From Vulcanisaeta souniana JCM 11219 (GTDB taxonomy: Archaea; Thermoproteota; Thermoprotei; Thermoproteales; Thermocladiaceae), in assembly GCF_026000775.1 (NCBI RefSeq), contig NZ_AP026830.1, positions 1,945,056 to 2,009,055 on the forward strand: a stretch of 64,000 nt of DNA. Direction: 5' to 3'. Below, one piece after another: positions 3,676 to 14,913 of this stretch. Both the position numbers and the translations under genes were made by a program. Numbering within the stretch: the stretch's first letter is position 1; each line of letters starts with the position of its first letter. The notes below the pieces were generated by a model that was given only the letters and a program-made list of their open reading frames with translations, made no database searches and was not told where the DNA came from.

Positions 3676-4995
3676 CTATCTAATGTTTTCCTCCTTTTCT
3701 ACTTCGCCCAGTGATTTGTCGAGTACGTCGATTGCTTTATCAATGTGCTCCTGCTTAACTGTTAATGGCGGTGCGAACCTAATGACATTGCTGTTCCAAC
3801 CACTGGTTACGAAGAGTACACCCCTCCTTAATGCCCTGTTGAGACATATGTCACTTGTTTCCTTGGTTGCTGGTTCCTTAGTCTTTCTATTCTTAACTAA
3901 CTCAATACCGATCATTAGCCCCAATCCCCTGACCTCGCCAATGAGTGTATGTTTATCATAAAGTTCCATTAGTCTCTTCATGGCATACTCACCCATTTTC
4001 TTGGCATTGCTTAGTAATTCTTCCCTGTGCGTGTTGTAGTAGTCGATCGTTGCCTTCACGGCGCTCATAATCAGCGCCGATGCTCCAAAGGTTGAGTGCT
4101 CATCATTCAACTGCATTGCCGAGATTAACTCCTTCCTAGTGACCACCGCTGACGCTGGTAATCCACCCGTCATGCCCTTGGCCGCGACTACTATGTCAGG
4201 TTTCACATTGAATTGCTCAAGGGCCCAGGTGGTTCCTGTTCTACCCATGCCCGTCTGGACCTCATCAAATATTAGCAATATGCCGTATGCATCGAGGGTC
4301 TTCTTTAACTTCTCGAAGAAGTCCATTGGAGGTACCACTATACCTCCAACACCCTGTATTGGTTCGCTCACTAGGCAACAAACATCCTTCACAGCCACGT
4401 AATTTATGTAATACTCAATGGTTTCAACGGCTGCCTTTCCACATTCCTCAGACGGCATATCGCCGAAGGGGCACCTATATGGATATGGGAATGGCGCTAT
4501 CAACGTGCCTGGCGGTAATGGGCCGTACTCCTTCCTTCTCATTCCATGGTATGAAGACGTTAGGTATGTCCTACCGTGGTAACCACCCATTAGGTACATC
4601 ACGTACGTATTCTTCGTGTACCTCTTTGCAATCTTCAATGCTAGCTCAATACCCTCGGAACCGCTTAACTTGAAGTGGACTTTATTGTACATGTTCTTAT
4701 CAGGGAATAGGCCTAATACCGCCTTTGCCGCATTTAGTAACTCCTCGGTGTACCAGTTATAGCCGTTACCAGCAATTAGGCGCTTTGCGGTCTCGGCAAT
4801 GGCGTCAGCAAGCCCCGGTGGGTTGTGGCCGAGTAGTGCTGTGGTTACTACGGTCATGAAGTCCAGGTATGTATTTCCATCGACATCATACACATATACA
4901 TCCCGTGCCTCCCTAACCACAACTTTATGCGTTGGGTATAGGTTCGTCATTAAATACTCGTCTAATTCCCTTAGGAGTTCCTCGGATCTTCCCAT
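3676..4995 (-). CDS. Class III PLP aminotransferase (4-aminobutyrate/ornithine type)
   Basis: A 439-residue fold-type I PLP enzyme of class III. Visible are the 'SGSEGIELALKIAK' phosphate-binding region, 'GGYHGRTYLT', the signature 'LIFDEVQTGMGRTG' (Asp243 pairs with the pyridine nitrogen) and the Schiff-base lysine Lys273 in 'VVAAKGMTGGLP'. Full length fits 4-aminobutyrate, acetylornithine and related aminotransferases. Sequence alone does not separate these substrates, and no arginine or GABA pathway genes are adjacent. It is a single gene convergent with thioredoxin. Confidence 0.88.
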   Translation of the reverse strand: MGRSEELLRELDEYLMTNLYPTHKVVVREARDVYVYDVDGNTYLDFMTVVTTALLGHNPPGLADAIAETAKRLIAGNGYNWYTEELLNAAKAVLGLFPDKNMYNKVHFKLSGSEGIELALKIAKRYTKNTYVMYLMGGYHGRTYLTSSYHGMRRKEYGPLPPGTLIAPFPYPYRCPFGDMPSEECGKAAVETIEYYINYVAVKDVCCLVSEPIQGVGGIVVPPMDFFEKLKKTLDAYGILLIFDEVQTGMGRTGTTWALEQFNVKPDIVVAAKGMTGGLPASAVVTRKELISAMQLNDEHSTFGASALIMSAVKATIDYYNTHREELLSNAKKMGEYAMKRLMELYDKHTLIGEVRGLGLMIGIELVKNRKTKEPATKETSDICLNRALRRGVLFVTSGWNSNVIRFAPPLTVKQEHIDKAIDVLDKSLGEVEKEENIR

Positions 4996-12219: not shown

Positions 12220-14913
12220 TTAATGGAAGAGTTGCGTACTGCCAATTACATGGCTTATCAATCTCTTAATCTCGTTGGCCAGATATCTCCTGCATTCAGT
12301 CTCAAGAACCTCGCCCTTAACATGCCTTCCCTCACTAAGCGCTTCCTCGATTGTGTTCCTGGTCACTATCTCGTAGACCCTTGCCTCAACCTTGCCGTTG
12401 CTAGCCCTAACCACACGGCCAACTCTTTGTATCATTTGCCTTTGGGACCCAGTTCCAGATAGTATTACAGCAACATCAGCGTCAGGCACATCTACACCTT
12501 CGTCTAGCACAGTAGTCGTTACAATGACCCTATAGGTACCCCTGGCAAATGCTCTAAATATTGAATCTCTGTCACTGGTCCTGGATGTTATTAAAGTAAC
12601 AATGGGACCAAGTTCATCCTTAAGAACCTTATATACCTCCTCGGCTTGTTTAATGAATTGCGTAAATACAATAATCTTACTTCCAATATTTGTCTCTGTC
12701 TTCACGATCTCCTTAGCAATATCAATCTTGGCGCTCGCCATGCTGGCTATATTCCTCAGGACAATGGCATTATCACCAGCCCTCTCATAGCTCCTCCTCT
12801 CCTCAGGCGTTAAATCAACGTAAATCCTGAAATGCCTAATGGGAACAACCAACTTAGCCTCAACCATATCCCTATAATCAGCCTGATAAACAATATCGCC
12901 AGCGCTCAGGTAAATCAAGTGCTCATTATTATCGCTCCTCTTCGGCGTGGCAGACAAAGCCAACCTAAAGGGTGCCCTGAGCTTAAACGCAACCTCCTTA
13001 AAGGTGTCGGCAGGGACGTGGTGGCAATTATGTACTACTATTCCGTTGACCACGAAACTATGGTCCCCCTCTACCTCAATATCGTAGACAAATTCTTCTT
13101 CCTTGGAAATACCCCTAGGGGTATTGGTGAGTATTTCCACATTAAGTATTCGTACAGGGACAAAGAATGCGCCACAGTCGGTCTTGTATTCTTTGCCTTT
13201 GGTGGTGGAATCGATAGATAGCAATCCCCAAGTACCATACTCAGGACCACCTTCCACTGTTTCTCCGTTAATTTTGGTAACGATGCCAACCCCCTTGCTT
13301 CCCTTACCTTCATCACCTCCCTTATTTGCCGGATTCTCTCCTTCCTCCTGCGAAGCATTCATCGTCTCAACAATCTTTATCTCTGTGGCTTTGGATTGTG
13401 GGCAGTCGCATAATGACCCCACAGAGCCTGGGGCGTTGAAAGTTCCTTTCTGCAGATCCTGCGCTTGTACGCCATAGAAGTACAGTGCATCCCCGCTCTT
13501 CAAAGCTATTGCTGGTTTCCACCCATCCTGCGTAAGGATTAGATGATCTTCCGTCGTCACTAACTCGCCCTTTTCATGAGTGATCCTTACCAATCTTTTG
13601 ATAAGGGGTATCTTAAAGTAGTTGGTTATGCGCATAAAACGTCCTTTATGCGTAAGAACCTTAACAGGTAATCTCTTCTCCACAATCTCTCCAATGGGTA
13701 TTAACCCCATATCCGTAATGACCAGTGCATCGTATGGTAAGCACTCATCGAACATGACTAGGTCAAACTTATCGCTTATCTCCGCTATCCTGTTAACGGC
13801 CGAGTTATAAATAGCCACAGTAACCTCCCTAACATCATCATAACCACCACCTAGCCTACCGGCCCTAATTCCAAGGTACTTCATTATCCTCTCGTACCAT
13901 TGATTCATTAATTCCTCCGTAATGACAAGTATTATTGTTGGTACTCTCACCGTGGCCAGGGTCTTGAGGGCTATGAATGTCTTACCACCGCCGGTCGGTA
14001 CGACAATCGTACCCTTCTTACCAGCCCTTAGCCAGGAATCGAGGGCTCTCTCTTGGAATGGTAGGAGTTTTATCTCGTCCTTAGGAATCTGTATTTGCCT
14101 TGGGCTCCATGGCAAGTCAACGACCTTATAACCGCTCTTTGCTAGTAATTCTCTTACAGTATCTTTGAGGAATATGGGGAATTTAATCATGACTTTATCG
14201 CTGTCTTTAATAATGTCGTCCTTACGTATGAGCCTCAAATCATGCTTGTTCAGGTTACCTTCCTTATCAACGATGTAATACGGAATGGTTAAGTCCTTCA
14301 GCTTTTCATAAAGCTCCCTAGATAGAAAGTGCAGCTCAGCGCTATCAAGGCTGAGCTTGGCGGTCCACCACTCAACTCTCCTCATGAATAAATCCCTCAG
14401 TTTATTGTTAGCCAGGGCGAATTCCCGAGCTCTCCTTAGTGCGAGCTCTGCATCGCCAATCACTGCCTTGCCAGCGAGTAATTGCCTGATATTCTCCACA
14501 GCCTTGTCGACGTACTCCTCGAATGATGATACATCACCTATGTAATTCCTGTCACTCTTAATGAAGTCCCTGATTAGGCATGACAATGATACAATGAACA
14601 AACCACCCTCCTCATTCAACACGCAGTCGCTTGGTATGGAACCGAGGCTCCCTGGGTCCTCAACACCAATTACACCACCTGACGAGTTTACGAGTATAGA
14701 TCTCATCAACTTCTCAGTCTCCTCACTGGTTAACTCAAGTAAGTCCTTAAGCTCCCTAATTAACGAGACCGAGTAGACCTTACCGGACCAATACTCGCCA
14801 TTCCACCTGAAGCCCAGCTCCTTCAGCCTATCCTTAACCTGGGATACCCTATCCCACGGCCACTCCCTCCTAATCTCAACATCGCCATTTACTACAACTC
14901 TAAAACGAGTCAT
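12220..14913 (-). CDS. XPB/Rad25-type DNA helicase containing an intein
   Basis: An 897-residue precursor; the spliced protein would be 658 residues. SF2 helicase motifs are present: Q-like 'LLPFQERALDSWL', Walker A 'VPTGGGKTF' (306-313), Walker B/DEAH 'VMFDE-CHH' split by the intein between residues 390 and 630, 'ALSATPKR' (motif III), and motifs V/VI 'TTTVLDEGVDVP' and 'SQRQMIQRVGRVVR'. The order fits archaeal XPB (Rad25), an ATP-dependent DNA translocase of repair or transcription. The roughly 280-residue N-terminal part is longer than in many archaeal XPB proteins and begins with a 'RFRVVVNGDVEIRR...FRWNGEYWSGK' domain. No bax1-like nuclease gene is adjacent. The start ATG at 14913 is close to the first bases of an A+T-rich spacer. 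Confidence 0.88.
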   Translation of the reverse strand: MTRFRVVVNGDVEIRREWPWDRVSQVKDRLKELGFRWNGEYWSGKVYSVSLIRELKDLLELTSEETEKLMRSILVNSSGGVIGVEDPGSLGSIPSDCVLNEEGGLFIVSLSCLIRDFIKSDRNYIGDVSSFEEYVDKAVENIRQLLAGKAVIGDAELALRRAREFALANNKLRDLFMRRVEWWTAKLSLDSAELHFLSRELYEKLKDLTIPYYIVDKEGNLNKHDLRLIRKDDIIKDSDKVMIKFPIFLKDTVRELLAKSGYKVVDLPWSPRQIQIPKDEIKLLPFQERALDSWLRAGKKGTIVVPTGGGKTFIALKTLATVRVPTIILVITEELMNQWYERIMKYLGIRAGRLGGGYDDVREVTVAIYNSAVNRIAEISDKFDLVMFDECLPYDALVITDMGLIPIGEIVEKRLPVKVLTHKGRFMRITNYFKIPLIKRLVRITHEKGELVTTEDHLILTQDGWKPAIALKSGDALYFYGVQAQDLQKGTFNAPGSVGSLCDCPQSKATEIKIVETMNASQEEGENPANKGGDEGKGSKGVGIVTKINGETVEGGPEYGTWGLLSIDSTTKGKEYKTDCGAFFVPVRILNVEILTNTPRGISKEEEFVYDIEVEGDHSFVVNGIVVHNCHHVPADTFKEVAFKLRAPFRLALSATPKRSDNNEHLIYLSAGDIVYQADYRDMVEAKLVVPIRHFRIYVDLTPEERRSYERAGDNAIVLRNIASMASAKIDIAKEIVKTETNIGSKIIVFTQFIKQAEEVYKVLKDELGPIVTLITSRTSDRDSIFRAFARGTYRVIVTTTVLDEGVDVPDADVAVILSGTGSQRQMIQRVGRVVRASNGKVEARVYEIVTRNTIEEALSEGRHVKGEVLETECRRYLANEIKRLISHVIGSTQLFH
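13027..13743 (-). other. Intein in the DEAH box of the XPB-type helicase
   Basis: Residues 391-629 (239 aa) interrupt the helicase between DE and CHH. The first residue is Cys (block A CLPYDALVITD); block B is 'GELVTTEDHLILTQDG' with the TxxH histidine; block F is 'YDIEVEGDHSFVVNG'; block G ends VVHN, followed by Cys+1 of the extein. All four splicing residues are present, so splicing should restore DECHH. The middle third (about residues 480-590) is low-complexity, Gly/Glu/Lys-rich and has no LAGLIDADG motif in the spliced frame. Confidence 0.88.
13071..13358 (-). pseudogene. Frameshifted LAGLIDADG endonuclease remnant inside the intein
   Basis: In a second frame of the same strand, 95 codons starting with an ATG at 13358 read like the start of an intein homing endonuclease: 'LTEKQWKVVLSMVLGDCYLS' (first LAGLIDADG helix) followed by 'HSLSLYEYLMWKYS', the usual 'hS..Q.eYl.wKy' motif. 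The second LAGLIDADG half is absent. The intein frame through the same DNA is open but low-complexity. I infer that the endonuclease was knocked out of frame and shortened while splicing was kept in frame. Confidence 0.65.

Follow-up and report, generated by a model that had tools for sequence, protein, structure and literature searches.

Inteins with a putative overprinted homing endonuclease gene, and a dead copy in an XPB-like helicase of Vulcanisaeta souniana

Inteins are usually described as one polypeptide that splices and, if large, also homes. The intein that interrupts an XPB/Rad25-like DNA-repair helicase gene of Vulcanisaeta souniana JCM 11219 probably represents an arrangement in which the homing endonuclease is a separate gene, overprinted on the splicing frame and translated by internal initiation, and of which this intein is a dead copy. 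The gene lies in a window of 64,000 nucleotides, the whole stretch of DNA that was analysed, and the window genome (G000) is a single contig of 2,432,148 bases.

The window intein and its endonuclease remnant

The host ORF matches the NCBIfam model repair_heli_XPB (2.9e-48, under the curated cut-off) and is interrupted in motif II/Walker B of the XPB-like helicase, at FDE^CHH. Direct reading of the insert gives an N-terminal Cys (C1, CLPYD), the TxxH of block B as TEDH, block F/G as FVYDIEVEGDHSFVVNGIVVHN, a terminal HN and Cys+1, all within an open host frame and at a conserved host site. Inteins of six related genomes, among them G001, G004 and G008, share 78-88% identity with the N-terminal splicing domain. 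Judging from its intact splicing motifs the intein is predicted to be splicing-competent, so that the host ATPase could be spliced. The features of the locus are as follows.

12220-14913, minus strand: XPB/Rad25-like helicase ORF that hosts the intein, 897 aa (Pfam ResIII, Helicase_C, ERCC3_RAD25_C and Intein_splicing)
13027-13743, minus strand: intein of 239 codons, residues 391-629 of the helicase ORF, frame fully open (motifs; PF14890, 5e-10)
13468-13743, minus strand: N-terminal splicing domain of the intein, about 92 codons, blocks A and B (conserved across relatives)
13027-13092, minus strand: C-terminal splicing region of the intein, its final 22 codons, blocks F and G (sequence; NCBIfam TIGR01443 intein_Cterm, 2e-9)
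13071-13475, minus strand: overprinted endonuclease remnant in intein frame +1, from a conserved ATG (13473-13475) to a conserved terminal TAG (13071-13073) (match to G004; Smith-Waterman z=54)
13398-13475, minus strand: N-terminal C2H2 zinc finger in degraded form, with Arg in place of the first Cys (YKRRICRKEL) (alignment with G004 and G008)
13377-13379, minus strand: first nonsense codon of the endonuclease frame
13359-13361, minus strand: second nonsense codon of the endonuclease frame
13212-13271, minus strand: first LAGLIDADG motif region (LTEKQWKVVLSMVLGDCYLS), catalytic-type Asp retained (alignment with G004 and G008)
13128-13169, minus strand: HSLSLYEYLMWKYS motif of the first endonuclease half (sequence, alignment)
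13127-13128, minus strand: deletion junction at which about 417 nt of G008, a multiple of 3, are absent; common to G001

Read in frame +1 from the ATG at 13475, the intein gives MAYKRRICRKELSTPQALWGHYATAHNPKPQR, a stop, RLLRR, a second stop, MLRRRKE...LTEKQWKVVLSMVLGDCYLSIPPPK...HSLSLYEYLMWKYS, the deletion junction, PIPLGVFPRKKNLSTILR and the terminal stop. The degraded C2H2 finger is thus followed by the two stops and the first LAGLIDADG half, which the junction joins to the extreme end of the protein. The remnant is 60% identical to residues 2-117 of the G004 endonuclease (E=2.8e-39), and its similarity to the endonucleases of related inteins is also clear in tblastn searches with the frame-2 peptide, which the sequence-only reading of this locus had proposed (E=1e-28 and 2e-27 in two complete related genomes). 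Smith-Waterman alignment in frame +1 scored 346 against a shuffle mean of 31.6 and a maximum of 55 (z=54), which rules out a chance ORF; frames 0 and +2 of the window intein gave no endonuclease match, and the endonuclease therefore lies outside the splicing frame. A Pfam search with the short remnant alone recognised no endonuclease family, the second of the two LAGLIDADG halves covered by PF03161 being deleted. Sequencing error at the locus is ruled out by the occurrence of the same offset in several complete genomes.

The sequence-only reading had placed a first LAGLIDADG half out of frame at 13071-13358, within an intein frame that stays open and keeps its splicing motifs. The ORF and both of the peptides quoted from it are present, the match to PF03161 of full-length relatives bears out the assignment, and the open frame and motifs can be read directly in the 897-aa ORF. 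The remnant itself starts further upstream than had been supposed, at the ATG at 13475, and is interrupted by the two stops listed above. The deletion that had been suspected also exists: G000 and G001 share a junction that leaves them 417 nt shorter than G008, in phase, and the second endonuclease half is removed. The window endonuclease is dead, having two stops and no second half, in a splicing frame that is still open, and the decayed copy retains the +1 frame, the position of the ATG and the terminal TAG.

Related inteins and constraint in two frames

An intein occupies the XPB site in G001, G004, G005 and G008, of the window's genus, and in G012 and G015, of a second, Caldivirga-like genus; in other genomes of both genera the XPB gene is uninterrupted at this site. 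G008, G004 and G012 are presumably Vulcanisaeta distributa, Vulcanisaeta moutnovskia and Caldivirga maquilingensis. The splicing domains are 77-84% identical between the two genera and the exteins 61-66%, and the distribution of the intein is patchy within each genus, from which it follows that the intein moved horizontally. In an intein tree, based on short sequences, the two Caldivirga-like copies are not firmly separated (AU p = 0.078).

The endonuclease lies in the +1 frame in all six related inteins, for G005 relative to the C part of the intein. In this last XPB intein (L006, G005:C15), which comes from a draft genome, the splicing frame is broken by a frameshift in the linker near a T run, which reflects either a sequencing error or a broken gene. 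G004 and G008 each have a helicase ORF of 1046 aa that contains no stop, and frame +1 of each encodes a full-length endonuclease, some 270 codons long, that has the N-terminal zinc finger as well as both LAGLIDADG motifs. These endonucleases match PF03161 (LAGLIDADG_2) at about 1e-35 (1.2e-35), their zf-C2H2_6 domain is intact (7.8e-7 and 1.5e-6), and the closest solved structure to the enzyme of these full-length relatives is I-SceI (E=4e-12). A single TAG interrupts each of the two, at different places. In G012 and G015 the linker has decayed and resembles the endonuclease in the +1 frame only (Smith-Waterman z = 9.3 and 20.2). No intact full-length endonuclease was found in Vulcanisaeta-like genomes among the genomes of the order examined, and since even the G004 and G008 copies carry a TAG, endonuclease activity in this lineage would at best be a thing of the past.

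These relatives bear on the origin of the offset, which the sequence-only reading had attributed to paired frameshifts: an in-frame endonuclease domain would have been shifted in the window lineage and then partly deleted, leaving a snapshot of intein domestication. The deletion is real, but alignment with fuller relatives, suggested at the time as a means of locating the two shifts, returns the same +1 offset. The offset is common to the related inteins of both genera, including the two whose endonuclease is full-length but for one nonsense codon; because full-length endonucleases sit in the same frame, the +1 shift is ancestral. Furthermore, a dead frame would accumulate indels and stops at neutral rates, whereas the endonuclease frame has been under purifying selection while out of frame. 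Paired frameshifts as a recent event are thereby contradicted, and what was lost in the window, through nonsense codons and a deletion, is an overprinted gene and not an in-frame domain. In the endonuclease tree, in-frame LAGLIDADG_2 inteins (L055 in G217, L191 and L200) do branch amid overprinted ones, so that an ancient frame switch is possible, yet as a whole the frameshift explanation is judged quite improbable.

The selection in question is seen between G004 and G008, whose 270 endonuclease codons differ by 52, 46 and 116 substitutions at codon positions 1, 2 and 3, so that conservation is greatest at the wobble base of the intein. In the endonuclease frame the two are 71% identical, as against 47% in the splicing frame. 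The endonuclease has therefore evolved under constraint while out of frame. The splicing frame is constrained in another manner: when codons are resampled synonymously with the codon usage of the exteins, 19-21 splicing-frame stops are expected in G004 and G008, where none is observed, and a stop-free splicing frame arises in 0 of 20000 resamples. Across the three genes tested, 18-21 intein-frame stops are expected in each and none is found.

The arithmetic of the overlap reduces to one codon rule. In the +1 arrangement the endonuclease wobble base is the first base of an intein codon, so any protein can be written without intein-frame stops; a stop requires an endonuclease codon ending in T followed by one that starts with AA, AG or GA, and avoiding this combination is all that an open splicing frame demands. 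No pair of residues forces a stop, because each NNT codon has a synonymous NNC. The other offset does have such pairs, a stop being inevitable wherever Met precedes Ile, Met, Thr, Asn or Lys, and it is plausible that the bias towards +1 reflects this avoidability of all stops by synonymous choice. T is found at none of the 77 and 79 risky junctions of G004 and G008, compared with 37 of 194 and 53 of 190 other junctions. In 15 overprinted genes, these two included, T precedes AA, AG or GA at 0 of 1129 junctions, a count that in part restates the open frame by which the genes were selected, and precedes other codons at 883 of 3256 (27%). The evidence therefore resides in the simulations and in the contrast with control genes, for in 231 other LAGLIDADG_2 genes T stands before AA, AG or GA at 4291 of 13407 junctions and none of them is at zero.

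These counts also decide against an overlap without common function, in which the spacer would be open by chance or codon bias and the endonuclease frame a mere passenger. Such an account fits the low complexity of the spacer and the poor conservation of the splicing frame, but it is refuted by the missing stops and by the T avoidance, which has no counterpart in any of the 231 other endonucleases; the third frame, moreover, is full of stops (30-39 in G004 and G008). It can be regarded as extremely improbable.

Overprinted endonucleases in other hosts

First scans of genomes and viral contigs with a two-sequence alignment (A2) gave no matches, and the productive scans used wider alignments (A4-A7), the final two scans yielding no further overprinted locus. 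The best match in the genome collection is L088, on a Bathyarchaeota contig, a TerL-like gene of 729 codons with a 440-residue intein (PF14890, 4e-8). Its endonuclease, a 334-codon ORF (PF03161, 5e-35), is intact in the +1 frame of the intein; it starts at a GTG that immediately follows the N domain and ends at a TAG within block F, with T at 0 of 78 risky junctions. Scans of viral contigs and an HMM survey of 292 distinct domains added 12 distinct intact loci (L168, L169, which equals L170, L171, L172, L174, L205, L215, L230, L239, L260, L261 and L280), all in frame +1 and all ending in TAG. This makes 13 intact +1 endonucleases in open inteins of other hosts, which further speaks against domestication by frameshift. 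Two candidates were dropped: L144 is an in-frame RecA intein in DNA of 71% GC, and the open frame of L093 is marginal.

Host genes of the +1 cases include TerL and helicases of the Hel308-like and UvrD types, with the intein at the Walker B/motif II Cys in those read in detail. PF14890 spans the endonuclease in nine of the ten +1 hosts scanned, and the intein of L205 was recognised by eye alone. The endonucleases of L088 and the viral copies match PF03161 at 1e-22 to 1e-38, and between pairs of overprinted genes identity is 45-70% for the endonuclease frame as against 17-38% for the splicing frame. G004, G008 and the 13 further loci, most of the intact cases being metagenomic contigs, have in common an open intein frame, an endonuclease in frame +1, a start past the N domain, a TAG in or next to block F and the absence of T before AA, AG or GA. 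Taken together they probably constitute a distinct kind of mobile intein, in which splicing and homing are performed by two proteins in overlapping frames, which recurs at the Walker B motif of several archaeal, viral and phage genes, and for which the +1 offset is favoured as a means of stop avoidance. In the endonuclease tree the overprinted enzymes and those of in-frame inteins intermingle, requiring four label changes, and the tree is compatible with one origin of the overprinted state as well as with several.

Several loci outside this set were also noted. L152 (Woesearchaeota) and L175 (a viral contig) branch beside the overprinted endonucleases, and under the survey criterion they do not themselves count as overprinted; their surroundings could reveal how the overprinted state is gained or lost. 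L055 (G217:C2:359066-359599), in an apparent LigD-type gene, serves as an in-frame LAGLIDADG_2 comparator. L085 (G345:C12) is an intein in a radical-SAM-like gene whose spacer has in-frame zinc-finger-like and nuclease-like segments of a non-LAGLIDADG type.

In the cultured Xanthomonas phage FoX3 an XPB-like helicase is interrupted by a 314-codon intein (PF14890, 6e-11), whose +2 frame holds an intact endonuclease (PF03161, 1e-21); here the open splicing frame by itself is weak evidence (2.5% by permutation). The phages FoX1, FoX2, FoX5, Murka and M29 are 97-99% identical to FoX3 and have no intein, and the FoX5 helicase presents the empty site as an uninterrupted DECHH; FoX3 and its intein-free sister phages thus make the dual-coding idea testable. 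The FoX3 locus (L248, MT161383.1, 26902-29268) is annotated as a putative DNA helicase only, the RefSeq record names head morphogenesis, and the overprinted endonuclease is unannotated.

Translation, proposed mechanism and known systems

The intact +1 copies start just past the intein N domain and end in a TAG inside or adjoining block F. All 13 intact +1 genes have an ATG or GTG in the short interval, a few codons long, that separates the upstream stop from the conserved core (joint chance 8e-7), and the starts are conserved within subgroups (MYQK; M-EELT) or alternate between ATG and GTG at the same place ([M/V]K-YDPS). For these reasons internal initiation is favoured over programmed +1 ribosomal frameshifting, by which a fusion of intein N domain and endonuclease would be made with no start codon of its own. 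Frameshifting would account for the +1 offset of every case but FoX3 and for an endonuclease frame that opens just a few codons upstream of its core, but starts that are conserved or exchange ATG for GTG behave as initiation codons would; no common slippery site was noticed on informal inspection. Frameshifting is accordingly considered unlikely. Shine-Dalgarno motifs before the starts are inconsistent, and in most loci they match no better than background.

It is proposed that the endonuclease is encoded in the +1 frame between the two splicing half-domains, as a separate gene in place of an in-frame domain. The open splicing frame would yield a spacer peptide of little sequence conservation and allow the host ATPase to be spliced, the endonuclease would probably be translated from the host mRNA by internal initiation, and by cutting intein-free alleles it may cause the element to be copied. 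In the window lineage the endonuclease gene has died and the splicing frame has stayed open; on this proposal the window intein is a dead member of a living class. Splicing and homing functions then share DNA and not frame, and with separate frames the endonuclease can be lost with no indel in the splicing frame, as in the window, and can be produced separately from the host protein. The arrangement is relevant to the entry of endonuclease genes into mini-inteins and their conversion to in-frame domains, and if the proposal is true it would preserve a step that has been postulated, in which an endonuclease gene invades a mini-intein before fusion as a domain. As a long natural overprint of a selfish gene, governed by a simple codon rule, it would also be among the clearer examples. 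Single-frame annotation misses such endonucleases, as the example of FoX3 illustrates.

In reviews and structures the intein endonuclease is treated as a nested domain at a conserved insertion site (PMC6801210). A search of the open-access literature found no published out-of-frame endonuclease in an intein and one parallel, ShiLan, so the double-coded arrangement provisionally seems not to have been described before for inteins. ShiLan is an out-of-frame HNH insertion in phage methylases; its authors show that it is not an intein and predict that the insert stays within the methylase (PMC11855218). As in the present inteins, the host reading frame runs on through the insertion and another frame encodes an endonuclease, whose ORF starts close to the 5' end and stops close to the 3' end, and the distribution is disjunct. 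ShiLan differs in having an HNH enzyme in the third frame and no splicing motifs, whereas the enzyme described here is of the LAGLIDADG_2 family in frame +1, and its carrier is an intein with intact splicing motifs (PF14890) at an ATPase motif.

Classical large in-frame LAGLIDADG inteins, such as L055 in G217, likewise hold the endonuclease between the splicing domains at the usual site, but there it belongs to a single polypeptide, whereas the overprinted enzymes occupy a separate frame and have start and stop codons of their own. Like a mini-intein, the window intein would be spliced out without an endonuclease domain, but a readable, decayed endonuclease is kept in frame +1 and relatives have it at full length. 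By sequence the enzymes belong to the same fold family as I-SceI and other intron-encoded or free-standing LAGLIDADG_2 (PF03161) proteins, from which they differ in being overprinted in an intein and in having N-terminal zinc fingers in Vulcanisaeta, or C-terminal Cys-rich zinc-finger-like motifs in many viral copies. The single C2H2 finger of the Vulcanisaeta-like enzymes is N-terminal, whereas in the endonuclease ORFs of L168, L171, L230 and L239 Cys-rich zinc-finger-like motifs are repeated at the C terminus in varying number.
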